Source of the DNA: Streptomyces sp. NBC_01142 | GTDB taxonomy: Bacteria; Actinomycetota; Actinomycetes; Streptomycetales; Streptomycetaceae | DNA length: 64,000 bases | Assembly: GCF_026341125.1 (NCBI RefSeq) | Contig: NZ_JAPEOR010000005.1 | Coordinates: 62,001-126,000 of the forward strand | Direction of reading: 5' to 3' | In this document: positions 7,050 through 38,018 of the stretch, piece after piece | How positions within the stretch are numbered: position 1 is the first letter of the stretch | Layout: each line of letters begins with the position of its first letter | Translations under genes and position numbers: made by a program | The notes under the pieces: model-generated | Databases searched by the model: none | Told to the model about the DNA's origin: nothing | The model's input: only the letters and a program-made list of their open reading frames with translations

Positions 7050-7254
7050 GCTGGGGTCACGGTAGCCGCAGGGCGGCGCGCTGCGGGGGCGAATGCCCCG
7101 GTTCATCTCAATCCGGCCAGCGGCTCGGCTGTTTGGCCGCAGGCGGCCGGAGGTGAGGGCGCGCGGATCGCGTGAGACGCCGGCGAGGCCTGCCACCATG
7201 GGGCGATGACCCTCGCAGTCGCACTCGCCGTCGGGACGGTGGTGGGATACGTGC

Positions 7255-8268
7255 TCAGGTGCTGTCGTCCTGCCCGGCGGGCGGTTCAGTGGGGGGCAGT
7301 ACGGCGGCCGCGATGGCCAGGGCGGGGACGGGATCGGCGAGCATCGGCAGCGAACCGAGCAGGAACCCGCCTCCGATGAACAGCAGTTGGCGGGCTGGCG
7401 AGCCCGGCCAGGTGCGCCGGCCATAGAGCAGTCCGCCCGTCAGGCTACCGACGGCGAGCGCGGCAGGGATCAGCGTCACCAAGTAGCCGGCGTGGTGGCG
7501 TTCCGCCGCCGCGAGGGCCACCACGTTCAAGGCCCCCAGGGTGATGCCCGCTCCGAACAGGGCGGCGGCCAGGGCGCGCAGGCCAGGGACCCGGATCGGT
7601 CCGATCCAGTGTGTGCGGGTGGGGACCGGCTGCCAGGTGCGGGTGGGTGGGGCGGTGAGGAACAGCGCGGCGCCCACCCCTCCGATCACGGCGGTGGCGG
7701 TGAGCACGAGGGCGGTGCCGTTCACGGCGTCGAGTCCGAGGACGAGGAGCGGCCCGCCGATGAATACGAGCTCCTGGGCGCAGGCATCGAGAGCGAGCGC
7801 GGCGCGGCGGTGCTGCGGGTTGTCGACGACGTGCGGCCACAGGACGCGGAGCGCGGCTTCCAGCGGCGGCGTGCACAGGCCTGCGGCCGCCGCGACGACT
7901 GCGGCGGGGGCTTGGTGGTCGGCCGGGTGGAGGAAGGCCAGGACCAGGAAGGCCGCGGTGGAGGCGAGGGAGGTGAGTCCGATGGCGAGGCGGTGGCCGT
8001 GCCGGTCCAGCAGGCGTCCCCACAGCGGCTGCCCGATCGCAGCGGCCAGTCCATACACGGCGGCGAGGACTCCGGCGAAGCTCAGCGTGCCGCCGTCGGC
8101 GCGGACGGCGATCAGGATCGCCAACGGGGCCATGGCGACGGGGAGGTGGCCTATGACCGCGCCCGCCAGGAGGCGGGTGACGTACGGGGTGGCCAGGACG
8201 TCGCGGTAGCGGGAGGCCGCGCGGACAGCGGATCTGCGCGGACGGTGCAGGAGGGGGCTGGTGGTCAT
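7255..8268 (-). CDS. MFS transporter, C-terminally short
   Basis: A 337-residue membrane protein with MFS features: GAVIGHLPVAMAPLAIL in helix 1-2, the loop motif GQPLWGRLLDRHGHRLAI, and the segment PPLEAALRVLWPHV. About ten hydrophobic helices are visible. The protein then ends in PPTEPPAGQDDST where helices 11 and 12 are expected, so it is some 60 residues short of a typical 12-helix MFS protein. At the same place a plus-strand small-protein remnant starts (ATG 7206), so the 3' end may have been lost by recombination. The start ATG 8268 has AAGGA 10 bases upstream; the longer frame adds a non-hydrophobic stretch. Function, if any, is unknown. Confidence 0.72.
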   Translation of the reverse strand: MTTSPLLHRPRRSAVRAASRYRDVLATPYVTRLLAGAVIGHLPVAMAPLAILIAVRADGGTLSFAGVLAAVYGLAAAIGQPLWGRLLDRHGHRLAIGLTSLASTAAFLVLAFLHPADHQAPAAVVAAAAGLCTPPLEAALRVLWPHVVDNPQHRRAALALDACAQELVFIGGPLLVLGLDAVNGTALVLTATAVIGGVGAALFLTAPPTRTWQPVPTRTHWIGPIRVPGLRALAAALFGAGITLGALNVVALAAAERHHAGYLVTLIPAALAVGSLTGGLLYGRRTWPGSPARQLLFIGGGFLLGSLPMLADPVPALAIAAAVLPPTEPPAGQDDST

Positions 8269-19347: not shown

Positions 19348-21270
19348 TCAGTCGTGGCCGGCGCCGCCCTGCTGCTCCTCGTCCTGGTCGTCGTCGGCGG
19401 CGTCCTCCGCCTCGTCCACGTCACCCTGGTCGTCCTCCTCGCGCTCGGCGTCCTCGTCGGAATCGTCGGGCTCCTCCTCGTCGGGCCCGTAGTACTCGGC
19501 GAGGTCGGCCAGGGCGAACAGCTCCTTGCCGTCGACGACTTGGCCGGCAGGGAAGTTCTTCCGGCGCCGCTTGTGCTGACGCATCAGCTCGGAGCTGACC
19601 TCGATCCCGTCTTCGGCCAGCCGGCGGGAGATCTCCGCCAGCGGGAGCAGCTCGACCTCCTCCTCGGGCTCGGCGACGACATCCTGCTCGGCGTCGGCCT
19701 CCAGGACCGGCGGCTCGTCCTTGACCATGCTCACCGACGGAAGCTCACCGCTGCCGTCCTGGCCTGCGGGTATGGCCTGCGGATCGGCTTCCTTCGTGAA
19801 CAGGGGCCTGGACTCCTGCAGCAGGGACGGCAGCCGCTGAGGACTGCGGGCCGGCGGGGCACCGTACAGGTCCTCAGTGCTGTAGCCGCGCTGCGCGCGC
19901 AGCTCCATGCTGTGGGTGCGGAAGTCCTCCGGGTCCGCGTACGGGACCTGGATCCAGACCCGCCGGTTGCCCTCGATGATCATCATGCGGCCGGCCCGGT
20001 CGACGGACTCCGGCACGGGCGTCGTATTGACGATCATCTTCCACTGATTTGCGTTGAAATTTCCCATAAGGATCATTCGGAACATGTTGCGCAGGCCCCG
20101 GGAGCCGACCGCAGCTTCCCGCAGGTCCTGGAACACACCGATGATCGTCACGTTGACGTGCCGGCCCATGCGCATGATGGACGCGATGTCGCCCCAAATG
20201 GGGTCGCTGGCAGGCTCGCCCTTTTCCTTGTTCTCGTTCCACCACTCCTTCGACGCATCACCGAATTCATTGCCCTCTTCGAGAATGAGGGTGAGACGGT
20301 CGAAGTTCTTCCGCGGGTTGCCCTTCTTCACATAGTTCCGGGCCTCCACCTCACGGGCAGCCCAGGAAATCGCGGACCGCATGTCCCCGATATTCCCCGG
20401 GTCGGTGTAGAGATGTACGCCCTCGACGCCTTCGAAGCAGTTGATGGACGCCATCTTCACGTCGATGCCGATAACGGTCGCGCGCTGGCGCACCAGCTGC
20501 GTGATGATCATCTGGAGGAACGAGGACTTTCCGCCACCGGAACCCACCGAAAGGGCCCACATTGCGGTTTCTCCGGTCATTTCCTTGATTACCGGGCGCT
20601 GGCGTTCGTCGATGCCAAGTACGAGCTGGCCCGGCTCGCACGCAGCGATCGCCTTCTGCACGAGGTCACTGAAGAAGTCGACCGTCTCAGGCGGCTCCAG
20701 CTTCGGCTTCGGCTTCTGCGGGGTGAACACCACGTTGAACGGGTGGTTCTTGAGATTCCACTCCCCCGCCCACAGCCCGCCCATTCGGTCCTGGATCAGC
20801 TCACGCATCTGCTCCTTGAAGCCACCCGGATCGTGCCAGCCATCAGGCAGGCGGACGGCGACGAACGATCGGTCGATGGGGATGTTGAGAGCGCGCAGCC
20901 GCTGGTGATCGTCCCATTCGGAAAGGAGGTCCTTGAGGGCCATGGACATCGGGATCACCAGGGCCCGCATGTGGTGGCGCCGGCCGCGCCCGCGGATCGC
21001 CGCGACGACCACGATCGGGACGGCCACGGCCGCGGCGATGATCGACACGCGTATCACGCGGTCGTGGTCCTTGATCCACCACCACATCCACGCGGCCCAG
21101 CCGGCCCAGGCCAGAAGCACCAGTCTCAGCAGGGCGATTCCCCACCGCGGCAGGCTGCCCGGTGGTCTCGGCTCACCGTCCAGCGGGGCCCCGCTGACAA
21201 ACCGCCCGAGGACCATGGCCCCCTGCTCCAGGCCGTCTTCGAGCTGCTTGTCGAACTTAGTCTGCGCCAC
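19348..21270 (-). CDS. TcpA/FtsK-like DNA translocase (coupling protein)
   Basis: A 640-residue protein, the probable DNA pump of the transfer system. Two N-terminal transmembrane helices (about 45-65 and 74-92) are followed by an FtsK/HerA ATPase. Walker A is ALSVGSGGGKSSFLQM (about 240-253) and Walker B is RLTLILEEGNEF (about 325-336). A RMGRHVNVTIIGVFQDLREA segment and the RGLRNMF arginine-finger-like motif follow. The last 100 residues are very acidic (DEEEPDDSDEDAEREEDDQG), preceded by an SRRLAEDGIEVSSELMRQHK block that may be a winged helix. The intact Walker motifs contrast with the two degenerate P-loop paralogues in the same operon. GTG 21270 has a GGGGAAG box. A strong terminator follows. 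Confidence 0.85.
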   Translation of the reverse strand: MAQTKFDKQLEDGLEQGAMVLGRFVSGAPLDGEPRPPGSLPRWGIALLRLVLLAWAGWAAWMWWWIKDHDRVIRVSIIAAAVAVPIVVVAAIRGRGRRHHMRALVIPMSMALKDLLSEWDDHQRLRALNIPIDRSFVAVRLPDGWHDPGGFKEQMRELIQDRMGGLWAGEWNLKNHPFNVVFTPQKPKPKLEPPETVDFFSDLVQKAIAACEPGQLVLGIDERQRPVIKEMTGETAMWALSVGSGGGKSSFLQMIITQLVRQRATVIGIDVKMASINCFEGVEGVHLYTDPGNIGDMRSAISWAAREVEARNYVKKGNPRKNFDRLTLILEEGNEFGDASKEWWNENKEKGEPASDPIWGDIASIMRMGRHVNVTIIGVFQDLREAAVGSRGLRNMFRMILMGNFNANQWKMIVNTTPVPESVDRAGRMMIIEGNRRVWIQVPYADPEDFRTHSMELRAQRGYSTEDLYGAPPARSPQRLPSLLQESRPLFTKEADPQAIPAGQDGSGELPSVSMVKDEPPVLEADAEQDVVAEPEEEVELLPLAEISRRLAEDGIEVSSELMRQHKRRRKNFPAGQVVDGKELFALADLAEYYGPDEEEPDDSDEDAEREEDDQGDVDEAEDAADDDQDEEQQGGAGHD

Positions 21271-24432: not shown

Positions 24433-26613
24433 GGGTACCCGGGGTACCCGGCACCGCCGAGCTCACCTCAGCACCTTGGCCCGCGCCCACCAGCCGCCGC
24501 GGGCCAAGGTGTAGATCAGCACCCGATGGAAGTTCCGCGGGCGCCCGACAGAGCCAAGGCGGGCCGAGTACCCGACTCGGCCGTCGCGTGCCACTCCCAT
24601 CTGGCACCCGACCAGAGCGCCCGCGGACCCTACACCGACGGGCCCCCATCCCTGCGCCAGCCGTCCGGGTACTCGGCACCGGTCGACAACGTCGGCGGGT
24701 ACCCGGGGTACCCGACACCGCCGTGCTCTGACTCCCCCCGCCCGGCGGGTACCCGGGGTACCCGGCACCGGTCGACAACGATGGTGGGCACCCGGCAACT
24801 TCAGCTCCCGCGGCCCGGCGGGTACCCGGGGTACCCAACACCGCCGAGCTCTGACTCCGCGGGTACCCGGGGTACCCAACACCGCCGAGCTCTCGACTCC
24901 CCCGGCCCGGCGGGTACCCGGGGTACCCGACACCCGCCGAGCTCTGACTCCGCGGGTACCCGGGGTACCCAACACCGCCGAGCTATCGACTCCCCCGGCC
25001 CGGCGGGTACCCGGGGTACCCAACACCGCCGAGCTCTGACTCCCCCCGCCCGGCGGGTACCCGGGGTACCCGGCACCGGTCGACAACGATGGTGGGCACC
25101 CGGCAACTTCAGCTCCCGCGGCCCGGCGGGTACCCGGGGTACCCAACACCGCCGAGCTCTGACTCCGCGGGTACCCGGGGTACCCAACACCGCCGAGCTC
25201 TCGACTCCCGCGGCCCGGCGGGTACCCGGGGTACCCAACACCGCCGAGCTCTGACTCCGCGGGTACCCGGGGTACCCAACACCGCCGAGCTCTCGACTCC
25301 CCGGCCCGGCGGGTACCCGGGGTACCCAACACCGCCGAGCTCTGACTCCGCGGGTACCCGGGGTACCCAACACCGCCGAGCTCTCGACTCCCCCGGCCCG
25401 GCGGGTACCCGGGGTACCCAACACCGCCGAGCTCTGACTCCGCGGGTACCCGGGGTACCCAACACCGCCGAGCTCTCGACTCCCGCGGCCCGGCGGGTAC
25501 CCGGGGTACCCAACACCGCCGAGCTCTGACTCCGCGGGTACCCGGGGTACCCGGCACCGCCGAGCTATCGACTCCCCCCGGCCCGGCGGGTACCCGGGGT
25601 ACCCAACACCGCCGTGCTCTGACTCCCCCCGCCCGGCGGGTACCCGGGGTACCCGGCACCGGTCGACAACGATGGTGGGCACCCGGCAACTTCAGCTCCC
25701 GCGGCCCGGCGGGTACCCGGGGTACCCAACACCGCCGAGCTCTGACTCCGCGGGTACCCGGGGTACCCAACACCGCCGAGCTCTCGACTCCCCCGGCCCG
25801 GCGGGTACCCGGGGTACCCAACACCGCCGAGCTCTGACTCCGCGGGTACCCGGGGTACCCAACACCGCCGAGCTATCGACTCCCCCGGCCCGGCGGGTAC
25901 CCGGGGTACCCAACACCGCCGAGCTCTGACTCCCCCCGCCCGGCGGGTACCCGGGGTACCCGGCACCGGTCGACAACGATGGTGGGCACCCGGCAACTTC
26001 AGCTCCCGCGGCCCGGCGGGTACCCGGGGTACCCGGCACCGCCGAGCTCTGACTCCGCGGGTACCCGGGGTACCCAGCACCGCCGTGCTCTCGACTCCCC
26101 CGGCCCGGCGGGTACCCGGGGTTCCCGGCACCGCTCGACAACGCCGGCGGGCACCCGGCAACTTCAGCTTCCCCGGCCCGGCGGGTACCCGGGGTACCCA
26201 ACACCGCCGAGCTCTCGACTCCCCCCGCCCGGCGGGTACCCGGGGTTCCCGGCACCGCTCGACAACGCCGGCGGGTACCCGGGGTACCCGGCACCGCCGA
26301 GCTCTCGACTCCCCCGGCCCGGCGGGTACCCGGGGTTCCCGGCACCGCTCGACAACGCCGGCGGGCACCCGGCAACTTCAGCTTCCCCGGCCCGGCGGGT
26401 ACCCGGGGTACCCAACACCGCCGAGCTCTCGACTCCCCCCGCCCGGCGGGTACCCGGGGTTCCCGGCACCGCTCGACAACGCCGGCGGGTACCCGGGGTA
26501 CCCGGCACCGCCGAGCTCTCGACTCCCCCGGCCCGGCGGGTACCCGGGGTTCCCGGCACCGCCGTGTTCCGACTCCGCGGGCACCCGGGGTACCCGGCAC
26601 CGCTCGACAATCG
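24433..26613. repeat. parS: Centromere-like array of GGGTACCCGGGGTACCC palindromes
   Basis: By eye, about 33 perfect copies of the 17-bp palindrome GGGTACCCGGGGTACCC and some 10 variants (second half GGTTCCC, or first half GGGCACCC). One copy is isolated at 24433-24449 and the rest are dense from about 24700 to 26613. Each core is two GGGTACCC palindromes one base apart. Cores are separated by a few alternating spacers: AACACCGCCGAGCTCTGACT-type (about 24 bp), a 34-bp type ending CGGCCCGGC, and a longer type with GGTCGACAACGATGGTGGGC. The array directly follows the two-gene partition operon, so a centromere bound by the partition proteins is the best reading. An origin iteron set is the alternative. 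Long open frames through it are repeat artefacts. Confidence 0.85.
24463..24540 (-). pseudogene. Fragment of the replication-type winged-helix gene
   Basis: Minus-strand frame reads RNFHRVLIYTLARGGWWARA and ends KVLR-stop. It matches DFHHALIYTPTPGGWWARKL in the intact 443-aa protein at 32876-34207. Only about 25 residues are recognisable, embedded between the first, isolated palindrome and the dense array. It shows that a related replication-type gene once lay here. Confidence 0.55.
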
Positions 26614-26624
26614 GGAGAGAACAT

Positions 26625-26660
26625 GACGGTGGCCCGGCGCGCATGCGCCGGGCCACCGTC
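26625..26660 (-). terminator. Strong terminator of the partition operon
   Basis: A perfect 16-bp inverted repeat (26625-26640 and 26645-26660, loop GCAT), 12 bp past the stop of the second partition gene and just before the palindrome array. Confidence 0.8.
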
Positions 26661-26671
26661 TCAAGGGTCGT

Positions 26672-27724
26672 TCAGTTTGCAGCTTCAGCCAGATCGATCC
26701 CGAACTCCTCGCAGAGTTCCTGCGCCATCTTCATGAACTCTATGGCGGCCTCACGGGCGCGAGGCTCATCGGTTGCCCGCAGCGAGCGGATGGCTTCCTT
26801 GGCCTGGACTGCCTGACGAACGTTGTCTGCGCCTGCCTCCGTAGACCTCGTTGACTGGCCGACCACCTTGGGCTTCTGCTCGACAGGCTCGGCAAAGCCG
26901 AGGAACGCGGCAGCCTCGTGGAGGTTCTTCTCCGTGATCTTCTTCCGTGATGCCTCCTCCCACGTCTGCCGAACGGCGTCAGCTCCGAAGGTTTCGAAGA
27001 CCGGGCAGAGCGGCCGGAGGTGCTTCTCGACGAGCTCCATCGAGGTCACAGACTCGAGTGCCATGACGACTGGTACTGCGCGAATGATCTTGTTGGCGTA
27101 GTTCTTGCCGAACCCGAACCGTGCCTTCATCAGCGCATCGAAGTCGGGCAGCCCCACGACCTCCCAGAGCTTCTCCTCCTTGATGGCCAGGAAGTTCTGC
27201 CCCTGCACGATGATCTTCTGCTGCTGGACGCGCTGCTCATTGGCGCGAGCTGCCATCTCCGCCTGGGCGATCCCTCGGGCGTAGTGGTTGAGACGCTCCT
27301 TGGGGTCCTCGGTGTCAGGGCGTGAGAACGGACGGATCTCGACGTACCCGTTCCGATCACGATCGGCTGGCAGCCGCACCAGGCCATCGCCGTCGTCGCC
27401 CGGAAGGAGAAGGTCAGAGTCGGGATCGTCCTCTGCCTCCTGGCTCACCTTCGCAGTCTCCGTCGATGAGGCATTCGCGCCGGCCTCTTCGCTGGCCCCT
27501 TCGCTGGCTTCAGCATCTGACGCAGCGAGGTCATCGCCACTTGAGCTTGCGGTGTCGTTGTCGACGTCAGGGGCAGCCACGTCCTGTTCTTGCGTTGCCT
27601 TCAGTCGCTCCGCTTCCCACTCCGCTCGAACCTGCTCGCGGGTGCGGACCGCCGGAACTGCCCCGCCTTCCGGCTGACCACTCGTCGACCCCTTGGGGAG
27701 GGTAGCGGGACGATACTTGCTCAT
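26672..27724 (-). CDS. ParB-like partition partner / centromere-binding protein candidate
   Basis: 350 residues, second gene of the partition operon. Its ATG overlaps the parA stop (ATGA). The N-terminal 125 residues are basic then acidic and disordered. Residues about 140-290 are helical, with LNHYARGIAQAEMAARANEQ, a KLWEVVGLPDFDALMKARFG segment, then FGKNYANKIIRAVPVVMALE. The last resembles the helix-turn-helix used by plasmid ParB/KorB-type proteins. The ParB CTP-binding motif (GERRWRA-like) is absent. Position, coupling to parA and the adjacent array make it the likely DNA-binding partner, but homology to ParB is not proven from sequence alone. Confidence 0.65.
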   Translation of the reverse strand: MSKYRPATLPKGSTSGQPEGGAVPAVRTREQVRAEWEAERLKATQEQDVAAPDVDNDTASSSGDDLAASDAEASEGASEEAGANASSTETAKVSQEAEDDPDSDLLLPGDDGDGLVRLPADRDRNGYVEIRPFSRPDTEDPKERLNHYARGIAQAEMAARANEQRVQQQKIIVQGQNFLAIKEEKLWEVVGLPDFDALMKARFGFGKNYANKIIRAVPVVMALESVTSMELVEKHLRPLCPVFETFGADAVRQTWEEASRKKITEKNLHEAAAFLGFAEPVEQKPKVVGQSTRSTEAGADNVRQAVQAKEAIRSLRATDEPRAREAAIEFMKMAQELCEEFGIDLAEAAN

Positions 27725-28899
27725 GCTGCGAGCTCCTTAGCCAGTTTCCGCATCGCCTCAGCTTGCGAACAGTCTGCGGCGTACTGGAACAGTGGGATCT
27801 CGTAGTCCGAGGACTCTCGGCCTTCGATGCTGTCCTTCAACTCCGCGAGCACAATGGGGGAGTGGAGGGTGTTCCACTCGTCGTAGAACCCCTTCGTTAC
27901 GGTGCCCTTCCGGGAGTCGTAGGCGTTGATGATGAACCCAAGCTGGTCCACCTCGATCCGCATGTTCTTGCACGTCGTCTCGATCTGGCCTTTGAGCAGG
28001 TTGTACGCGCGGAAGGATGACCGGTCGGACCAGACCGGAATCAGGATTCCCGAGTGGTCGATGAGCTCGCCGGGGCGTCGGTGGACGTAGTCGATCGCGA
28101 GCTCCATGCCCAGCCCCAGGTTCGGAGGGCCGTCGAGTACGACCACGTCGTAGTCGTCCTCGACCGGCTCGAGTGCGCGACGCAGGCAGGTGTCGCGGCC
28201 GGCGGACATCGTCGCCAGGGCAGCGTCCATCAGGAACGCGTCCTCAAACACCGGCAGTATGTGCAGACGGCCATCGAACATGGGCCCCGGGTTGATCTCG
28301 CGGCCCTCCATGGGCACTTCCTCGAGCGCGATGATCGACCGCCGCAGATGCTGTGTCGCCTTGCCGAGCATGTGCTGGAGAAGACTGTCTCCTCCTGTGG
28401 GGAGTTCAGCCACCTGGAGGCGTGCGGAGAGGTGACCCTGCGGGTCGTAGTCGACGATCAGGACCTTCAGGCCTAGCTCGGCAAAGGCCTGGGCGAGCGC
28501 TGCCGCGATGAACGTCTTGCCCACGCCGCCCTTCTGGTTGCCGACGAGGATCCGCTTGACGGGCTGCCGGACCAACCGATCGACGGGGGAGGGGTGACGG
28601 AGAAGCCAGTGCGTGATGGCTTGAGCGATGCCTTGAACCTTCGTCAGGCTCCGCGCCTCACACTCATGCTCGAAGCGCTCGACGCCGCCGGCAGGTACGT
28701 AGGAGGCCCAGGACTTCGCGCCCTTGACATCGACCTTCTCGACGTCGGGGTTCTCGTACCAGAGGGTCAGTGCGTTCACGATGGCGTCGGAGACGTTGAG
28801 GCCGTGCTCAGCAGCACGGATCTTCAGGTCTCGCCGCATCTCCGGCATGACGTTGGCGATCAGCTTTTCAGTGCCGGATTCGCTGTTGGTGATGGTCAT
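27721..28899 (-). CDS. parA: ParA partition ATPase with N-terminal ribbon-helix-helix-like domain
   Basis: 392 residues. The ATPase has the deviant Walker A LVGNQKGGVGKTFIAAALAQ, the switch I-like VLIVDYDPQGHLSARLQ, and DVVVLDGPPNLGLGMELAID. ParA proteins position plasmid copies on the nucleoid. The first 60 residues (IANVMPEMRRDLKIRAAEHG, then NVSDAIVNALTLWYEN) read as a ribbon-helix-helix DNA-binding domain of the MetJ/Arc/CopG type. In type Ib systems this domain is normally a separate small protein. ATG 28899 was chosen; ATG 28926 is possible and neither has a clear ribosome binding site. An imperfect palindrome sits just upstream (28918-28933) and could be the autoregulatory operator. 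Coupled to the downstream partition gene. Confidence 0.85.
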   Translation of the reverse strand: MTITNSESGTEKLIANVMPEMRRDLKIRAAEHGLNVSDAIVNALTLWYENPDVEKVDVKGAKSWASYVPAGGVERFEHECEARSLTKVQGIAQAITHWLLRHPSPVDRLVRQPVKRILVGNQKGGVGKTFIAAALAQAFAELGLKVLIVDYDPQGHLSARLQVAELPTGGDSLLQHMLGKATQHLRRSIIALEEVPMEGREINPGPMFDGRLHILPVFEDAFLMDAALATMSAGRDTCLRRALEPVEDDYDVVVLDGPPNLGLGMELAIDYVHRRPGELIDHSGILIPVWSDRSSFRAYNLLKGQIETTCKNMRIEVDQLGFIINAYDSRKGTVTKGFYDEWNTLHSPIVLAELKDSIEGRESSDYEIPLFQYAADCSQAEAMRKLAKELAA

Positions 28900-28917
28900 G
28901 GTGGGCAACTTATCAGT

Positions 28918-28933
28918 CACCGACATGTCAGTG
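28918..28933. promoter_or_regulatory. Candidate parA operator palindrome
   Basis: Plus strand CACCGACATGTCAGTG, a 16-bp palindrome with one mismatched pair, 19 bases upstream of the chosen parA start (it overlaps the alternative ATG 28926). Ribbon-helix-helix proteins usually bind such short palindromes. Confidence 0.4.
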
Positions 28934-29337: not shown

Positions 29338-29364
29338 CCAGCGGGTACCTGCGGTACCCGCTGG
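29338..29364. repeat. Perfect inverted repeat with GGTACC halves, related to the array core
   Basis: Arms CCAGCGGGTACC (29338-29349) and GGTACCCGCTGG (29353-29364) around TGC. It contains GGGTACC and GGTACCC, the half-sites of the 24.4-26.6 kb array, but differs in spacing. It lies about 440 bp upstream of parA, so it could be an extra binding site or operator for the partition proteins. Confidence 0.6.
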
Positions 29365-29922: not shown

Positions 29923-30093
29923 GTTCGCTCTGCGTGGAGGGGGTGTTGGTCAGCCAGATAGCCAGCTGAGTGCCGGTGTCGCCGGGTCCGTCTCTCGTGC
30001 TTGCCCTAGCCAGTCGGACCGCGGTGACGGTGTCCCCTTCCCTCCTCGATTATGGAGCAGATCATCGCTGTCCGTACGAGGGCTGGCTCAGTC

Positions 30094-32757
30094 ATGCCGA
30101 AAACGGCTGATCGGGCGGCTCGTTCCAAGCGTTCTGGTTCGTCCTGGCGTCGTAGTGCGCGCGCGGGCGAGGTTGTCGAGTTGGCGGGTCCGGTCCCGGA
30201 GTCGGGTCCTGGTGATCCGCTGGTGTTGAACCGGGCGATGCGTGCCCGGCTGTATGCCGCGGTGCGGTGCCTCCTGGCGGACAAGTCCCTTGAGGGCGCA
30301 CCCGATTCAGTGCGCCTCGCGGCGGTGGTGCTGCTGGCGAAGGCGCCTGCGCGCAGTGCCGTACTGCGTCTTCGGGCGGGGGAGATGGGGCGGTGGCTCG
30401 GGTTCTCCGAGTCGTACGTCGACCACAAGGTGCTGCCCGCGATGCGCGAGGCCGGCGTGGTTGAGACCGACGCGCTGACCGATGAGTCCGGTCGGGTGAC
30501 GGGGCTGGAGTGGAAGTTCCTGCCGTTGCTCGCCGCGCGCGAGAGCGGCGATCCGATGCACCCGCTCGCCCTGGTCCGCAAGGACTTGGCGACCCTCCTT
30601 CGGTTCTGCGAGGCGCTGTTCGCCCCGGGTTGGGCGCCGATCGACGGTCCGGTGACGCCGCCGGGGCTGCTGGCGGCGCGGCGGGGGAGGGGTGCGGCGA
30701 CGGACCGGCTCGCTCTGCTGCTCCTGGCGCTGCAGACCCGGCCGGACGGGCGCGTTCGTCTCGTCGGCGGTTCGGTGAAGGAGAGCCGCGGGCGCGCGGA
30801 TGCCACGGTCGCGAAGGCACTGGGTTGTTCGGTCTCCGGCGGCGGCAAGGTGGTCGATCGCCTGGAGCGTCTCCAGCTGGTCGAGGTGGTGCGCGGGACG
30901 ACCGAGACGGGCCAGTACGGCAAGGGCCGGCTTGTGGTTCCGGCGGTCGCGTCCGCGTTCGGGCGCGGTGGTGCGCCGCTGGTCGTTGTCGAGGACGTCG
31001 TCGAGGAGCCGCAGGAGGCTGCGGCGTGTCCGTCGTGCGCGCACGGTTCGGTCCATGGTGAGGACGGGGCGGCCGGCGAGGTCTTGGTGCTGTCGGGGGA
31101 GGGCTGGCAGCAGGAGTCGTTCGACGATGTCGAGCCCGAGGATTTCCAGCGCCCCGCTGCTGCACCCGGAGATCTTGAAGGGGCCTCGGAGCCGGAAGAG
31201 CCGCTGACCAGCGGGGAAGAGGCCCCCGGGGCCGAGCCGGAGCCCGGTTTGGTGGAGCGCCCTGCTGGTGCACCCCTCCACGCCGACCACGCGCCTGGGG
31301 TTTCTCTCTCTGGTTCTCTCTCGCTCTCTGGTGGGTTTTCCGGCGGAGCCGATCCGGGGTGCGGTGATCTGCCGGAGCGCGCGGGCACCCGCGAGGACGG
31401 GCCGGACCACACCTGCGCAGCTGCGGCTGGGCGGGGGCTGGGCGGCCCGCTTCGCGGGGAACAGCAGCAGGAAGCAGATGGTGAGTCGGGTCGGTCGGTC
31501 GAGCTTGGCTCGGTGAAGGGCTCGGCGAAGCCGTCGGGGACCCTGGTGTTCGTCAGGCCTGCGGCCTTGCCGGCGGGCCTTGAGTCGGTGCTCGCGCCGG
31601 TGCGGGTGGTGTGGGAGCGGATCCTCCGGCCGGCTGCCCGCCGTCATGTCACTGCGGCGGTCCGGGTCCAGCTCGGCGCGCTGCGGGGGATCGTCGGTCC
31701 GCAGGACGCCGAACAGGCCCTCGCCGAGCGCCTCGAGCGGCGCCTTGATCAGCAGATGGGCCGGCCGGTCACCGACCCGGTGGGCTGGATCCTGGGCCGC
31801 GGCCTGGTCCAGCGGGCGTGGTGCTGGTCGCAGCTGTGCGACGAGGGCCGGCGGATGGACACCGGCGCCGACTGCCCCAGCTGCCAGGTCCTGATCGGTG
31901 ACCGGCGCGGACTGCGCGCGCGGATCGCCGCGGAGACCGCCCGGGAGCTGGCCGGAGCGGCGCCGCAGGTGCTGCAGGCCGAGATGGAGAAGCGGCTGAA
32001 CGCCGCGGTGACGTACGAGGCCGCGGCCCAGGCCGTACGCCGGGAGCGGGCGGTTGCCGAGCAGCAGGCCCGCGCCCAGGTCGTCGAGCAGCGCCGGGCC
32101 GAGTACGCGGCGGCCGAGCGGGAGCGCCTTGCCCGCCCGTGCGACGACTGCGGGATCCCGGACGCGGCCGGCCGGTGCCTGCTGTGCACCGAACGCCGGG
32201 CCGTGGATCGGGCGTTGGCCGAGGCGGTCGACTTCGCGGTCATGGCCCGTGCCGACCTCGCCGACCAGGGCGCGGTCGCCGAAGCCACGAAGCGGTGCAC
32301 GGCGGACACCCGGGCGCTGCTGGAGCAGCACTTGGACCGGCTGCGCGCCGACGGCGCCGACGAGGGCGGGCTGCTGCTCGCCGCGCGGGAGACGGCCGAC
32401 AAGATCCGCGACCGGCGCCGCGAGAGCCTGAACGTCCGGCTGATGCGCTCGACGGAGGCCGAGGCGGAGGCGGACAAGGCGTACGACGCCAAGATGCGCG
32501 CCGCGCATCGGTTCCCGAACCGGGAGATGGCCGAGGCTGCCGCCGAGCGTGTGGCGGACGAGGCCCTGCTGCGGGCGGTGGAGTTCTTGTTCGCCGACCG
32601 GGCCCGGCAGTTGCGGATCGCCCGGGGCGAGCAGCCGGCCCGGCCCGTGGCGACGGATTGGTCGAGCCGCTGCGCCGAGCTCGCCGACCAGGAGCTCCCC
32701 GAGGACCCCGCCGAGCGCTCCGGTTCCCGGGTGCTGGAGGCGGTGAGCGCGGCATGA
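30094..32757 (+). CDS. Large winged-helix, zinc-ribbon plasmid protein (replication-type)
   Basis: 887 residues. The N-terminal 250 residues hold at least two winged-helix units (LRLRAGEMGRWLGFSESYVD with KVLPAMREAGVVETDAL, and ADATVAKALGCSVSGGGKVV with DRLERLQLVEVV). An acidic disordered middle follows. The C-terminal half begins with a helical domain (ALRGIVGPQDAEQALAERLE). It then has Cys pairs (GADCPSCQVLIG; PCDDCGIPDAAGRCLLC) likely to bind zinc, and long charged helices. Similar wHTH proteins are encoded near origins of actinobacterial plasmids. A role in initiation or its control is inferred from position only. ATG 30094 has GAGGG upstream; ATG 30052 would add 14 residues but has no ribosome binding site. 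First gene of a three-gene coupled unit. Confidence 0.65.
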   Translation: MPKTADRAARSKRSGSSWRRSARAGEVVELAGPVPESGPGDPLVLNRAMRARLYAAVRCLLADKSLEGAPDSVRLAAVVLLAKAPARSAVLRLRAGEMGRWLGFSESYVDHKVLPAMREAGVVETDALTDESGRVTGLEWKFLPLLAARESGDPMHPLALVRKDLATLLRFCEALFAPGWAPIDGPVTPPGLLAARRGRGAATDRLALLLLALQTRPDGRVRLVGGSVKESRGRADATVAKALGCSVSGGGKVVDRLERLQLVEVVRGTTETGQYGKGRLVVPAVASAFGRGGAPLVVVEDVVEEPQEAAACPSCAHGSVHGEDGAAGEVLVLSGEGWQQESFDDVEPEDFQRPAAAPGDLEGASEPEEPLTSGEEAPGAEPEPGLVERPAGAPLHADHAPGVSLSGSLSLSGGFSGGADPGCGDLPERAGTREDGPDHTCAAAAGRGLGGPLRGEQQQEADGESGRSVELGSVKGSAKPSGTLVFVRPAALPAGLESVLAPVRVVWERILRPAARRHVTAAVRVQLGALRGIVGPQDAEQALAERLERRLDQQMGRPVTDPVGWILGRGLVQRAWCWSQLCDEGRRMDTGADCPSCQVLIGDRRGLRARIAAETARELAGAAPQVLQAEMEKRLNAAVTYEAAAQAVRRERAVAEQQARAQVVEQRRAEYAAAERERLARPCDDCGIPDAAGRCLLCTERRAVDRALAEAVDFAVMARADLADQGAVAEATKRCTADTRALLEQHLDRLRADGADEGGLLLAARETADKIRDRRRESLNVRLMRSTEAEAEADKAYDAKMRAAHRFPNREMAEAAAERVADEALLRAVEFLFADRARQLRIARGEQPARPVATDWSSRCAELADQELPEDPAERSGSRVLEAVSAA

Positions 32758-32879
32758 ACCCCACCGTCACCGTGGCTGCGCCGCCGCGCGGCGCACGATC
32801 CGCACCACCAGGTTCTCCTCACGCCGGACGAGTGCGCCGGGATGTGGTGTCCCCCCTGCGACCTGGGGAGACGTCATGA
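32754..32879 (+). CDS. Tiny coupled ORF between the two replication-type genes
   Basis: A 41-residue frame whose ATG overlaps the stop of the upstream gene (ATGA, 32754-32757) and whose TGA overlaps the next start (ATGA, 32876-32879). The sequence starts MNPTVTVAAPPRGARSAPPG and is basic and Pro-rich. The frame following the upstream gene's own stop also looks protein-like here (VLLTPDECAGMWCPPCDLGR, with a CxxC), so a frameshift or readthrough history cannot be excluded. It may serve as a coupling relay. Confidence 0.4.
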   Translation: MNPTVTVAAPPRGARSAPPGSPHAGRVRRDVVSPLRPGETS

Positions 32880-34207
32880 GCAGCAGGACGCTTTCCCGGG
32901 CCCGGCGCGGGCAAGCGGGGCCGGTGTGGGAGCGGCGCCAGCTCAGCCGCCGATCCCAGCACCTGCTGCTGGAGGGTGACGTCGAGGGCCGCTACGCCGG
33001 ACACAACGACGCGGAGTCCGGCTACCGGCTCACCGCCGCCTTGGCGCTGGCCTGTTCACAGCCGGGCCGGGAATGGACACCCGCCGACTTCCACCACGCC
33101 CTCATCTACACCCCGACCCCGGGCGGCTGGTGGGCGCGCAAGCTCCGCGAGCGCAAGGGCGTGCAGTACGCCGAGAACAAGCTCACCGCGATGCTGGAGA
33201 ACGCCCGCGCTTTCGCCGGCACCCGAGGGACGATCACCGGCCGTCCGGACGCCCTGGAGAACATCGCCGAGATCCGGTACGCCGTCGAATCCCTCGCCTG
33301 GCCGACCCGGGGCGGGGGAGCGGTCGACCACAAGAACCTCGCCGCCCGCCTCAGCCGGTGCGACCGCGCCGGCGGTGCCGACCACACGATCGCGGTTCGG
33401 CCGCTCGCCGAGGCGATGGGGTGTGCGAAGTCGACCGCCGAGAAGAGCAACGAACGCCTGGAGAAGGCCGGCTGGCTCATCAAGGAGGAGGTGGGCTCGG
33501 GCAAGAACCACGGCACCCGATGGCGGCTGAAGATCCCCGACCCCGTCCGCGCGCACCTCGCGTGTGCAGAGTCGGGACAGATCCTGACCCCCCACCCACC
33601 ACTGCAGCTGGAAACTGTCCCGGACCCGCACACTTTCACCGACACCGCCGCGCTCGCCGAGGTCATGGCCCACGACGCCTTCCACCACTACGGCCACGGC
33701 ACCAGCGGCGCCCGCCTGTTGGCCTGCCTCGACGTCACCGAAGGACTCAGTCCCGCCCAGCTGCAGCAGGCCACCACCCTGCACCGCACCACCGTCGCCC
33801 GCCGCCTCGACAAGCTCGTCGCCGACGGCCTCGCCCACGAGCGCGAGGGCCTGTACTACCTGAGCCCCGACCTCGCCGGCCCCGTACGCCTGCACCCCGA
33901 CGACGAGGTCCTCACCCAGGCCGCCGAGCAGCAGGGAACCACGGGCAGAGGAGAGCGCCGGCGAGAGCGGCACGCCCGTGAACGCGCCAACTACCAGCGG
34001 TGGAAGGCCGAGCGCACCCGGCGCCGCCACCCCGAACGACCGCGCCCGGTCCTCGTGCCCGAGGGCGTCGTCGACCCCGAGACCGGCGAACTCCTCGACG
34101 AACGATGGCGCGGCTGGGACACCTCCGACCCCACCCGCCCCGTCTGGCTCGCGCCCGGCGCCATCCCCCGCCCCAACCAGACCACTCCACCCGCGCAGGC
34201 AGCATGA
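32876..34207 (+). CDS. Winged-helix plasmid replication-type protein
   Basis: 443 residues. The N-terminus is basic. The segment WTPADFHHALIYTPTPGGWW is followed by KLRERKGVQYAENKLTAMLE. Residues about 130-220 contain a wHTH (IAVRPLAEAMGCAKSTAEKS, then NERLEKAGWLIKEE). A second HTH lies at about 290-335 (LSPAQLQQATTLHRTTVARR with KLVADGLAHE). The end is Arg-rich. A short fragment of a relative is found at 24463-24540 beside the palindrome array. Together with the large upstream gene it forms the likely replication or copy-control unit; no endonuclease or helicase motif is seen. The start overlaps the tiny ORF stop. Confidence 0.65.
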   Translation: MSSRTLSRARRGQAGPVWERRQLSRRSQHLLLEGDVEGRYAGHNDAESGYRLTAALALACSQPGREWTPADFHHALIYTPTPGGWWARKLRERKGVQYAENKLTAMLENARAFAGTRGTITGRPDALENIAEIRYAVESLAWPTRGGGAVDHKNLAARLSRCDRAGGADHTIAVRPLAEAMGCAKSTAEKSNERLEKAGWLIKEEVGSGKNHGTRWRLKIPDPVRAHLACAESGQILTPHPPLQLETVPDPHTFTDTAALAEVMAHDAFHHYGHGTSGARLLACLDVTEGLSPAQLQQATTLHRTTVARRLDKLVADGLAHEREGLYYLSPDLAGPVRLHPDDEVLTQAAEQQGTTGRGERRRERHARERANYQRWKAERTRRRHPERPRPVLVPEGVVDPETGELLDERWRGWDTSDPTRPVWLAPGAIPRPNQTTPPAQAA

Positions 34208-34294: not shown

Positions 34295-35026
34295 ATGACC
34301 AGCGATCTCATGGGCTCCCGGTCCCCGCATGCCCTCATTCAGACCGTGATCATCAGCTACGGCGACGGACACCACGACGCGCCCCGAGGCGACGCACTCC
34401 GGGTGGATACCCGTCCGCTGCGCAACCCGCCCGAGGACCCGGCCGTACGCGCCCGGATGCTCCACTCCACCGGCCTGGATCCCGAGGTACGCGCCTACGT
34501 GCTCAGCTCGCCCGGTGCCGAGCGCCTGATCGAGCGCAGCACCCGGCGCGCGCTCACGCTCCTCGGGCAGTCGACGGACGGCCGCCGCGTCGACCTGCAC
34601 GTTCTGTGCGGTGGCGGCCGCCACCGGTCCGTCGCAGTCGCCGAGGAGGTGGCCGATCGCCTTCGCACCGCCGGCTACGGCGTGGAGACCGAACACCCCC
34701 ACATCACCCGGCCGATCCTGCCTGCCGTGACATGGCCATCGCTGATCACCGAGCACGAACTGGCCGCACTCTGGCTCCTCGCGCGCGGCCTGCACCACAC
34801 GGAGATCGCCAAGAAGCTCAAGGTGCGCCCGGAGACCGCAGGCCGACTCCTGCACGGTGCGCAGGGCCGGCTACGAGCGCGCACCCTCGCTCACGCGGTC
34901 GCGCGCGGCTATGAGACCGGCATCATCCAACCCGCGCCCCTGCAACTCGCCGATCACCTCCGCCTCAACGCAGCGCACCGGGAAGGGGAGCACCACCACA
35001 TCACCCGCCCCGACTTCGACTCCTAG
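34295..35026 (+). CDS. RapZ C-terminal domain fused to a LuxR-type HTH
   Basis: 243 residues. Residues about 15-130 match the RapZ C-terminal domain, an RNA- and metabolite-binding fold: DTRPLRNPPEDPAVRARMLH, STGLDPEVRAYVLSSPG, then DLHVLCGGGRHRSVAVAEEV (equivalent to the GCTGGxHRSV signature). Residues about 148-215 form a LuxR/FixJ-type HTH (LITEHELAALWLLARGLHHT, then EIAKKLKVRPETAGRLL). The RapZ N-terminal P-loop domain is absent. The fusion suggests a one-component regulator sensing a ligand through the RapZ-C fold. ATG 34295 has only a weak ribosome binding site. The gene follows the replication-type genes by about 90 bp in the same direction. Confidence 0.75.
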   Translation: MTSDLMGSRSPHALIQTVIISYGDGHHDAPRGDALRVDTRPLRNPPEDPAVRARMLHSTGLDPEVRAYVLSSPGAERLIERSTRRALTLLGQSTDGRRVDLHVLCGGGRHRSVAVAEEVADRLRTAGYGVETEHPHITRPILPAVTWPSLITEHELAALWLLARGLHHTEIAKKLKVRPETAGRLLHGAQGRLRARTLAHAVARGYETGIIQPAPLQLADHLRLNAAHREGEHHHITRPDFDS

Positions 35027-35252
35027 CGCCCCGCGCCGGCCAGCTCGCCCGTCAGCCAGCCGCGAGCCCTCGGCGTCCCGCTCGTCGTCACCGCCGGCAC
35101 AAGCCCGGTGGAGCGGGACACCCGCCCCGGTCCGCAGGTTCGGCCGCCGGGCGGCTCCTGATCCCGAAGATCCCGCCCGTCGCGCCCGGACGTGCGGCAC
35201 AATCGCTCCCTGGGCGCAGCGCCCGGGGCAGGCACGATGCACGGGCGGGGCG

Positions 35253-38018
35253 ATGGAGGACGTACGGGAGCTGCTGGCCGAGTACGGCCAGGCCCACAGC
35301 GACGAACTGTCGGAGCAGGACCGCTACCGGCTCCTGGTCGAGGTGGTGGCGTCCCTGATCCGGCGCACCGACCCCGATGCGACGGTTGCCCACCGCTCGA
35401 CCGATGAGCCGGCCGTGTTCTTCGAGCTCGCCGGACGCGACTACGCGATCACCGTGACGACCGCGTCGGGCGACGATGCTGCCGAGGCGGCTCGCGCCGC
35501 GGTGCAAGCCCGCGAACGGGACCTCGGGCAGGGGGTGCGATGGGTCCTGGTATGCGCAAGGGCTGCGGGCCAGGAGGTGGACGAGACGGTGCGCGCCGTC
35601 CTGCGGAGCCAGGGCGTCTTCCTCGACCGTGACCACCTCGAGGCTGCCGTCTGCGACCTTGCCCAGCTCGCGACCCTGATCCGCGCGGCCTTCCGCCCGC
35701 CGCGCTCGCCGCACACCCTGCTGCACGAGCTCTTGCTGCAAGAACCCCAGGAGCCTGCCCCGGCCCTGTCGTTGGCGGCCCGCCCGTACGGGGCGGCGAG
35801 CCTCCCGTCCCGTACGCCGGCAGGCATCGACCTCTCCGTGGTCCTGGCCGGCGAGGCCTGGCCGCTGCGGCCGACCGGGCTGGCCTGGGAGTCCGCCGAG
35901 CACGCGCTGATCACCACCGAGGCCGGCCTTGCGGACGTGGACCTGCAGCGGGGCGGGACCCGGTGGCGGCTGCCCCTTCCTGGCGTGCACGGCGCCGCGG
36001 CGGTGCTGCCGGACGGATCGGTGTGGGTGCTGTGCGGGCCGGCGGTGGTGATGTGGCGCGACGGCGTGCTGCGGGCGGCGGGCGGCGGATTCGAGGCGAA
36101 CGCCAGCCTGTTGCTCGGCCCAGAGTCGAGCGTGTGGGTCCTGTCCGGATCCGGAGCGACGCTCGGCACGGGGACCGGCTCGACCCTGGCGCTCACGCGG
36201 CTCGGTGAGGAGGTGGGCGACCAGCAGCGGTACTCCATCGACTTCGACGCGGCGGTCCGCTCGGCCGGCTGGCTCGGCGAGCGGCGCTTCCTCCTCGCCG
36301 CCGGCGGACACAGTGCCGTCGTCGACCTCGCCGTCAGCACCAGCGCCGGGGGACACGAGGACTGGATGCTGACCCCGGTGTCCTACCCCGGACATCTGGC
36401 ACGCAGCGGCGCCGACGCCGTCCTGGTGGCCGGGCGGTCCGGCTCGGGCGTCGGCGTGGAACTGCACACCCTCGACGCGACCGCCCGCACCAGCGACGCG
36501 GTCGCCGAGCTGCAACTCGGCGACGTACTCGGTCTCGTCCAAAGCCCAGCCGGCGGACCCGCCTACCTGCTGGGGTCGCTGCCGACGAACGACGTCACCG
36601 CCGTCCACCCCGTGCTGGTGAAGATCACCGGCCATGTACCTGCCGCCTCACCAGCGGCCGAAGAACCCGCGCCGCCGGCCGCCGACCCCTACAGCGAGGT
36701 GCGCCGCCAGGCCCGCGGCATCAAGAAGGACTACGCCCTGGAGAAGTTCCCGCTGCCGGACGGCAAGGGCGGCATGGGCATCGTCCACGAGGCCGTGCAC
36801 AAGGAGACGGGAGCCGTCGTCGCCTTCAAGAAGCCCCGCTCGCTGCGCGAGAACCTGACCGCGAGGATGCTCCGCGAAATCGAGGTGGCGCAAAAGCTCG
36901 GCAGCAACCGCCACGTCATGCCGGTCCTCGACTCCAGCCCCCGGGCCGAGTGGTTCGTCATGCCGATGGCCCAGAGCACCGCCGAACGCCTCCAGCCCGA
37001 ACTGCAGCACGACCAAACCGCACTGCGGGCCCTGGTGGACGCGGTCGCGTCCGCCCTGACCGACGCCCACCGCCTGGACTACCTGCACCGCGACATCAAG
37101 CCCGCCAACATCCTCCTCCTCGACGGGCGCTGGGTCCTCGGCGACTGGGGCATCGTGCGCCGCCCCCGCGGGCAGACGACCAACCCCAGGCGCACCGGCA
37201 CCGCGATCGGGACCGCCGAGTTCGGCGCCCCCGAACTGTCCGTCGATCCTCACAACGCCACGCCCGCCAGCGACATCTACAGCCTGGGCAAGGTCATCGG
37301 GTGGCTGCTCACCGGCCTTCCCCCGGAGCCGAACGTGCCGCTGCTGCCGCCTGGGCCCTGGCGAGGCGTCGTACGGCACTGCACCTACCGCGATCCGCGG
37401 CAGCGCCCGCAGACGATCGCCGACTTCCTCGACCTGGTCGAGCGGGAGACCGCACCGCAGATCGACCTGCCCGTCGCGCGGGCCCAACAACTCCTGACCG
37501 CCGCCCAGGAGGGAGATACCGACGCCGCCCGCCGGCTGCTGACACTGGCCGCCGACCACGGCAGCGACTACGAGCTCTACCTGGACGTCCTGCCCGGCCT
37601 GGAGATGGACACGGCCGCACCACTCCTGCTGGCCCACCCCGAGCAGGCCCGCACCCTGGTGGAGGCGATGACCGGGCACGTCCGCGGCGACGGCACCGGC
37701 TGGCCGCACTGGAACGAATCCAAGCGAGCCATCGCCTGGCTGCGCGGCGTCGCCCGCCACGCAGCCCGAGAAGAACAGTGGGACCTGCTGGAAGAGGCCG
37801 CCCGCGGCATGTGCACCTGGGACGAGGCATCGAACGAGTTCGACCAGCAGATCGCGACCCGGGACTGGCTGCGCCACCTTCGCGGCCAGGCAGCCAGGAT
37901 CCTCGCCGGCGTACTGCGCGACCACCCCGGCAGCGCACGCTTCTACTACGAACTCGCAGGCGAGCGCGCCGTGGACATGGCCATCCGCAACGCCGTCAAC
38001 CACGCGACCAGCAACTGA
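35253..38018 (+). CDS. Ser/Thr protein kinase with N-terminal nuclease-like/propeller region
   Basis: 921 residues. The kinase domain (about 490-730) has a Gly-rich loop DGKGGMGIVHEAVHKE, the ATP Lys in VVAFKKP, catalytic loop YLHRDIKPANILLLDGRW (about 605-622), DWG in place of DFG (LGDWGIVRR), and an APE-like FGAPELSVDP. The first about 130 residues (FFELAGRDYAITVTTASGDD, WVLVCARAAG) look like a small alpha/beta sensor or restriction-endonuclease-like fold. Residues about 180-470 have repeated WVL/GxWL blades suggestive of a beta-propeller. A helical C-terminal domain follows. No transmembrane segment is present, unlike PknB-type receptors. Large soluble multi-domain kinases in plasmid accessory regions can be defence effectors, but that is inference. 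ATG 35253 was the only suitable start. Confidence 0.82.
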   Translation: MEDVRELLAEYGQAHSDELSEQDRYRLLVEVVASLIRRTDPDATVAHRSTDEPAVFFELAGRDYAITVTTASGDDAAEAARAAVQARERDLGQGVRWVLVCARAAGQEVDETVRAVLRSQGVFLDRDHLEAAVCDLAQLATLIRAAFRPPRSPHTLLHELLLQEPQEPAPALSLAARPYGAASLPSRTPAGIDLSVVLAGEAWPLRPTGLAWESAEHALITTEAGLADVDLQRGGTRWRLPLPGVHGAAAVLPDGSVWVLCGPAVVMWRDGVLRAAGGGFEANASLLLGPESSVWVLSGSGATLGTGTGSTLALTRLGEEVGDQQRYSIDFDAAVRSAGWLGERRFLLAAGGHSAVVDLAVSTSAGGHEDWMLTPVSYPGHLARSGADAVLVAGRSGSGVGVELHTLDATARTSDAVAELQLGDVLGLVQSPAGGPAYLLGSLPTNDVTAVHPVLVKITGHVPAASPAAEEPAPPAADPYSEVRRQARGIKKDYALEKFPLPDGKGGMGIVHEAVHKETGAVVAFKKPRSLRENLTARMLREIEVAQKLGSNRHVMPVLDSSPRAEWFVMPMAQSTAERLQPELQHDQTALRALVDAVASALTDAHRLDYLHRDIKPANILLLDGRWVLGDWGIVRRPRGQTTNPRRTGTAIGTAEFGAPELSVDPHNATPASDIYSLGKVIGWLLTGLPPEPNVPLLPPGPWRGVVRHCTYRDPRQRPQTIADFLDLVERETAPQIDLPVARAQQLLTAAQEGDTDAARRLLTLAADHGSDYELYLDVLPGLEMDTAAPLLLAHPEQARTLVEAMTGHVRGDGTGWPHWNESKRAIAWLRGVARHAAREEQWDLLEEAARGMCTWDEASNEFDQQIATRDWLRHLRGQAARILAGVLRDHPGSARFYYELAGERAVDMAIRNAVNHATSN

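Follow-up and report, generated by a model that had tools for sequence, protein, structure and literature searches.

Type I partition systems with a ribbon-helix-helix ParB include TP228 ParF-ParG and pSM19035, and ParG binds centromere repeats. Closer to the locus considered here is the ParA-ParT-parS (ParATS) system of SCP2 from Streptomyces coelicolor, whose ParT is described as a ParB-like protein that has no CTPase domain, uses an 18-bp inverted repeat (parS) as its loading site, spreads without CTP, and requires an N-terminal SRR for ParA binding (PMC12260392). Deletion of the parAB system of SLP2 (S. lividans) is reported to lower plasmid stability and proteins of the ribbon-helix-helix class bind centromere repeats in other type I systems (PMC13245405), while SpdA2-sps of pIJ101 consists of a Streptomyces plasmid stability protein and its palindrome (PMC4170104). 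Here we analyze a 64,000-nucleotide stretch of Streptomyces sp. NBC_01142 (contig NZ_JAPEOR010000005.1, positions 62,001 to 126,000; hereafter the window) in which a parAB operon is followed by 39 copies of a 17-bp inverted repeat. Comparison with related loci indicates that this array is very probably the centromere (parS) of a low-copy Streptomyces plasmid, read by the DNA-binding part of a ParT-like ParB.

The window resembles SCP2 ParATS (PMC12260392) in having a ParB without a detectable CTPase domain, a basic N-terminal peptide on that ParB, an adjacent parA, and an inverted-repeat site of 16–18 bp; the structural model of the window ParB also has a long helix before the DNA-binding region and C-terminal helices, an arrangement that looks like that of ParT. 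SCP2 parS is described as one 18-bp site inside parT, whereas the window has 39 sites outside the gene, and ∼50 residues precede the ATPase domain in SCP2 ParA compared with 110 in the window ParA. Given a window ParB that is similar to SCP2 ParT and in which no CTPase domain was detected, we regard the window system as a variant of the ParA-ParT-parS kind, and its membership in ParATS is likely from these comparisons. The initial annotation had proposed a centromere of a new type; with a ParT-like ParB and a published ParA-ParT-parS system, the novelty narrows to the two features that differ from that system, the 39-site array and the predicted tandem ribbon-helix-helix N terminus of ParA. 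A centromere repeat array and ribbon-helix-helix units are also found in the TP228/pSM19035 type (PMC13245405), but in the window these units are predicted in the ATPase protein and the array is apparently read by a helix-turn-helix ParB. For pIJ101, compared by description only, the abstract on SpdA2-sps mentions no ParA (PMC4170104).

An array of 17-bp inverted repeats downstream of parAB

The array, at 24433-26595, is made up of 39 copies of the 17-mer GGGTACCCGGGGTACCC, all in one orientation; 33 are perfect and 6 have one mismatch, the total coming from one assembly. Shuffled sequences are expected to give 0.02 copies in the same two-mismatch search, and a scan of the 10.1-Mb genome for the exact 17-mer returned 33 copies, every one inside the array. 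These counts, and a hairpin at 26625-26660 between parB and the array, bear out the initial annotation, which had placed more than 30 perfect cores beyond the terminator of a two-gene partition operon. It had also noted that spacers come in only a few types, and this held: core 1 lies 264 bp apart from the remaining cores, the other start-to-start distances are 51 (12 times), 41 (10 times), 73 (6 times), 50 (5 times), 39 (twice), 42, and 52 bp, the spacers form a few classes with variants, and Tandem Repeats Finder (TRF) reports higher-order units of 92 bp, 124 bp, and longer. A remark on KpnI sites was true, as 72 of the 79 GGTACC sites in the window fall in the array, but we found nothing that gives it importance. 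We take the contig to be a plasmid; blastn of the two 20-kb ends of contig C5 (162 kb) against each other gave no match at E <= 1e-5. The features of the locus are as follows.

24433..26595, reverse strand: candidate parS array, a 17-bp inverted repeat present 39 times, reading GGGTACCC-C-GGGTACCC on the parAB strand; the main block spans 24697-26595, and relatives have palindromes at the corresponding position behind parB
24450..24696, no strand assigned: 247-bp interruption from core 1 to core 2; contains a decayed winged-helix gene fragment, 24482-24541
26625..26660, reverse strand: terminator-like hairpin (-38.9 kcal/mol) belonging to the parAB operon and lying between parB and the array
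26672..27724, reverse strand: parB, ParT-like, 350 aa; basic N-terminal peptide MSKYRPATLP, helical region 186-275, C-terminal helices 297-349
27721..28899, reverse strand: parA, 392 aa; ParA/Soj-like ATPase at residues 112-392, preceded by two ribbon-helix-helix units predicted in tandem (10-49 and 62-101)
28900..28933, reverse strand: parA leader, with the dyad CACTGACATGTCGGTG and, 7 bp ahead of the ATG, a -10-like element
29338..29364, no strand assigned: lone, diverged parS-like copy with 2 mismatches, upstream of parA and inside a dyad with 12-bp arms, GGGTACCTGCGGTACCC; counterparts in related loci L005 and L006

The fragment in the interruption is a piece of the winged-helix gene found at 32876-34207 of the window. 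L005 has a counterpart between its cores 1 and 2 (7214-7430), which is longer, with 74 codons kept at 73% identity.

Palindromes after parB in related loci

Related loci carry L numbers. For the locus set, 40 of 72 near-full-length ParA matches were fetched; the ParA family after removal of identical parA copies comprises 69 loci, 65 of which have at least 250 bp after parB. A tblastn search with ParB matched 13 plasmid records. L005, with a ParB 69% identical to the window's, has 22 copies of the same core after parB (<=2 mismatches), and L026 has 3 copies at the same place. L005, L026, and the window have an identical core, with ParBs that are 68-69% identical. L006 carries GAAGACCC-G-GGGTCTTC after parB, in either orientation, in 4 copies with one more upstream of parA; L008 carries 3 copies of GGATACCGCGGTATCC after parB; and elements of ∼90 kb, which we call phage-plasmids because IMG/VR lists several as viral, carry GGTGACCA and its mirror after parB (GGTGACCA-A-TGGTCACC), mostly as two copies ∼45 bp apart. 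The half-sites GGGTACCC, GGATACCG, GGTGACCA, and GAAGACCC have GRNKACCN in common. The core had first been described as two 8-bp palindromes, and the arms are indeed self-palindromic in the window; because the arms of the relatives are not themselves palindromes, we read the unit as one ∼17-bp inverted repeat with half-site GRNKACCN, and the self-palindromic arms look like an incidental property of the window lineage.

Counting the window, 23 loci have a ParB that matches the window ParB at E <= 1e-40. The group palindrome was present after parB in 22 of them, and the exception, L152, is a sequence that ends 134 bp past parB. The window has 39 sites; most ParB relatives seen have 1-4, and one has 22. 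After masking of exact cores, the blastn matches listed between the window and L005 arrays were at most 29 bp long and lay at imperfect cores left unmasked; because the masked arrays match only briefly among the matches listed, this suggests that the two arrays grew separately around one conserved core. We also tried helical phasing of the cores. The distinct distances fall close to multiples of 10.2-10.5 bp (p = 0.003-0.011, and 0.045 for 10.6), but phasing was rejected on the misfit in L026 and in the 44-45 bp pairs of the phage-plasmids.

Streptomyces TraB proteins recognise clt repeats, and the array could in principle be a conjugation locus, whose clt-like sites would serve the FtsK-like protein encoded at 19348-21270, or else a functionless selfish amplification. 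Tra-like genes do adjoin the array (the FtsK match is below the Pfam cut-off), and copy number ranges from 3 to 39 among the closest relatives. However, the site pattern goes with parB, 33 of the 39 cores are exact, L005 and L026 share the core while the spacers differ, and isolated sites stand upstream of parA in three of the four close relatives (the window, L005, and L006; not L026), which makes both versions very improbable.

Several ParA-family loci have the palindrome embedded in a longer hairpin directly after parB (L189, L157, and L169; in several phage-plasmids this holds for the first site), as it would be if the palindromes were transcription terminators between parB and the next gene. 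The window and L005 have a separate hairpin ahead of the array, and 39 copies over 2 kb, with no T-runs after the cores and with copies upstream of parA, fit a terminator poorly; we give this explanation hardly any weight.

Across the whole ParA family, a repeated palindrome beyond all 20 shuffles was found in only 25 of the 65 loci, and in many of the remaining loci no similarity was detected between their ParB, for example the canonical ParB of SLP2, and that of the window. The CCCCGCGTGCGCGGGG repeats of L187, L181, and L185 scored in this palindrome scan; those of L187, the locus read among the three, look like a CRISPR array, and all three stay in the 65-locus count. In L187 (750-1380) the repeats are ∼28 bp long with a 61-bp period (GGACCATCCCCGCGTGCGCGGGGAGCAG) and lie on a plasmid upstream of a related parA, in an array that resembles the type I-E CRISPR kind; L181 and L185 show a similar palindrome at a 61-bp period.

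In a wider search, the exact 17-mer occurred in 14 of 392 genomes of the genus, once in 12 of them, twice in one, and 33 times in G000, with a reversed control found once in 4 genomes. A single-protein search of 199 genomes matched G000 alone, and tblastn with the Par proteins gave no match in the 4 viral stretches from the exact 17-mer search.

Recombinant loci separate the possible readers of the palindrome

The palindrome might be read by ParB, by ParA, or by a protein encoded nearby. L044 has a ParA 85.6% identical to that of L038 and shares the leader CTGGTAATTTGCTCGCC, exact in 17 of the 69 loci with L044 among the 17. Residues 1-45 of its ParB are as close to five relatives (20-29 of 42-45 identical) as the relatives are to each other (20-34 of 43-46), whereas from residue 76 to the end only 42-50 of 205-206 positions are identical to those relatives, which among themselves share 157-178 of 215-216. 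The L044 palindrome is likewise another one, GTGCCACATGTGGCAC, present twice. When viral contigs were searched with this palindrome, 14 stretches were found, and 2 of the 14 encode the L044-type ParB part: L044's own contig and L229, which was found by DNA pattern alone and lies outside the 69-locus set. L229 has the L044-type ParB part at 75% identity and the palindrome twice, 70 bp apart, together with a ParB N terminus that by eye differs from L044's and a 274-aa ParA-like ORF without a match to L044 ParA at E <= 1e-5.

A partial Mantel test over 31 loci agreed with this separation, associating the palindrome with ParB given ParA (r=0.81, p=0.0002) and not with ParA given ParB (r=-0.33, p=0.998); half-sites were assigned by inspection, 17 of the 31 loci share one half-site, and relatedness is not in the model. 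Because L044 and L229 separate the possible binders, the array is most likely a parS read by the DNA-binding part of ParB, and the proposal of a centromere in the initial annotation is supported by the comparison: a palindrome comes after parB in plasmid and phage-plasmid relatives, and which palindrome it is goes with the DNA-binding part of ParB. The recombinant loci suggest that the ParA-facing N terminus of ParB and its DNA-reading part behave as separate modules.

Two results slightly lower our confidence in a ParB-read parS. In a stricter shuffle test of the 22 testable loci among the 23 with a matching ParB, 12 beat all 20 shuffles and 5 were reached by one shuffle, and 5 of the 22 fail the test. 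In addition, a second search by DNA pattern, with GGTGACCAATGGTCACC, found a matching ParB encoded in 6 of 10 stretches, and because all six are on contigs already included in the comparison, it added no new evidence.

If the palindromes were instead bound by the ribbon-helix-helix N terminus of ParA, that protein would be both motor and centromere-binding protein. Ribbon-helix-helix proteins bind centromere repeats in other type I systems and the second ParA unit is weakly ParG-like (E=0.2), but L044 has the relatives' ParA and leader with another palindrome, L229 has the L044 palindrome with another ParA, and the Mantel analysis favors ParB; we consider this quite unlikely. Plasmids commonly have iteron arrays close to their rep genes, and the array could also represent iterons for a replication initiator, perhaps the winged-helix protein (32876-34207) or a 901-aa protein (30052-32757). 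The winged-helix gene fragment sits within the array, and L005 and L006 have genes of similar place and size upstream of parAB, with DNA similarity for the winged-helix gene. On the other hand, the phage-plasmid palindromes come after parB although the next genes differ, and the palindrome changes with the ParB DNA-binding part, so that we regard iterons as unlikely. Each of these alternatives (iterons, conjugation sites, terminators, and repeats bound by ParA) accounts for some of the observations, but none for the change of palindrome with ParB.

ParB resembles ParT and lacks a detectable CTPase domain

The protein encoded next to the array is, at 350 aa and with ordered parts predicted to be helical, not a small ribbon-helix-helix ParB. 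Its model has a low-confidence first third with one helix, a long helix at 141-183 (43 residues), a helical region at 186-275, a linker, and helices at 297-349. Region 186-275 resembles ParB DNA-binding domains, which were among the best rows of a structure comparison with middling Z scores (7o0n 7.5, 6sdk 7.3), Raf1 being close at 6.4; Foldseek with the model gave nothing at E <= 0.001. No CTPase domain is visible in the model, where residues 50-120 are of low confidence. The window ParB had no Pfam or NCBIfam match at E <= 0.01, and Pfam ParB_N was absent even at E <= 1 from the ParBs of the window, L006, L008, and L012 and from SCP2 ParT, while SLP2 ParB, as positive control, matched at 8.7e-9.

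Direct BLAST of the window ParB against SCP2 ParT gave no match, and a profile comparison matched them at E=4e-4 (probability 35%). Bridges between the window ParB and ParT were provided by L030 (4e-4), L044 (4e-7), and L153 (1e-14), in a small database, and by L191 (3e-9), in which a tblastn-detectable ParT homologue partners the tandem ribbon-helix-helix type of ParA. The N termini read MSKYRPATLP in the window ParB and SRRSLALP in SCP2 ParT, and in L044 the N terminus follows ParA. As a separate observation, L153 and L191, with ParT homologues paired to a ribbon-helix-helix ParA, carry TGTCCAATTGGACA after parB, twice in L191. No phage record among 50,697 matched ParB at E <= 1e-5, but IMG/VR viral contigs do match ParB and the ParA N terminus.

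SLP2 (NC_004933.1) combines the ParA type with a different ParB. Its ParA is homologous over the full length (49% identity across 393 aa) and has the N-terminal domain as well, but its ParB is canonical, with Pfam ParB_N and HTH_ParB, and no array was present in the scanned stretches of the 8.3-kb locus. A 23-bp dyad, GACCGTTAACGGCGTTAACGGTC, lies inside SLP2 parB (L237 5928-5950) and might be the centromere in the branch with canonical ParBs; L174, L171, L177, and L188 have comparable odd-centred dyads that include CGCCG.

A predicted tandem ribbon-helix-helix N terminus on ParA

Alignment with relatives makes 28899, rather than 29013, the likely start of parA. The 110 extra N-terminal residues are predicted to form two strand-helix-helix units ahead of the ATPase (E10-17 H19-31 H36-49 and E62-69 H72-82 H87-101), which we interpret as a tandem ribbon-helix-helix ParA. 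A profile of 18 ParA N termini gave weak ribbon-helix-helix matches in the PDB (ParG 1p94, E=0.2; a CopG-family protein, E=1.2) and matched 2kel, presumably also a ribbon-helix-helix protein, at E=0.02; a designed protein, 4yxx, scored higher (2.8e-5, no passing stretch), and one ribosomal chain was at 0.4. Pfam RHH_10 was found in 14 of 18 ParA homologues at a weak threshold (E <= 1), with a best value of 1e-4, the window ParA being below the cut-off at 0.11.

In a search of 72,556 plasmid records, this N-terminal domain matched 481 at E <= 1e-5, of which 465 are from Streptomyces and one is SLP2, and phage records gave no match at the same threshold. Literature searches aimed at the architecture, covering titles and abstract openings of the papers listed and hence no proof of absence, showed no description of it. 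A TAnnnT-like element ∼7 bp before the parA ATG was seen in most ParA-family loci listed, often within or beside small dyads, and the window leader may hold a promoter for leaderless transcription together with an operator to which the ribbon-helix-helix units would bind.

Proposed mechanism

We propose that one 17-bp inverted repeat would be the binding site for one dimer of the ParT-like ParB, via its ParB-like DNA-binding region. The basic N-terminal peptide of ParB may contact ParA, by analogy with the SRR of SCP2 ParT, and ParB loaded on the array would therefore stimulate the ParA ATPase, with the plasmid moved along nucleoid-bound ParA-ATP. The tandem ribbon-helix-helix N terminus of ParA probably binds the parA leader and so autoregulates the operon, and the many sites might conceivably raise the ParB load, with or without sliding.

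A broader proposal, to which we assign about an even chance, is that Streptomyces plasmids mix and match their partition modules. One tandem ribbon-helix-helix ParA backbone would take ParB DNA-binding halves, either CTPase-less and ParT-like or canonical, along with their centromeres, while the ParB N terminus stays with ParA; the CTPase-less ParB of the window lineage would have moved to a ∼40-site array centromere, site number possibly replacing sliding. Because this family offers natural centromeres of 1-39 sites with related ParBs, the trade-off between site number and spreading is directly measurable, which bears on how a CTPase-less partition protein builds a dense centromere complex. 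L044 and L229 further hint at the points where partition proteins could be divided and their parts exchanged.

Other features of the window

A 24/48-bp tandem repeat of the GGATCCGTCGGATCCGTCG type, with ∼6 copies of 48 bp and possibly coding, occupies 3973-4298. A protein with a RapZ C-terminal domain is encoded at 34295-35026, beside a large Ser/Thr kinase at 35001-38018.
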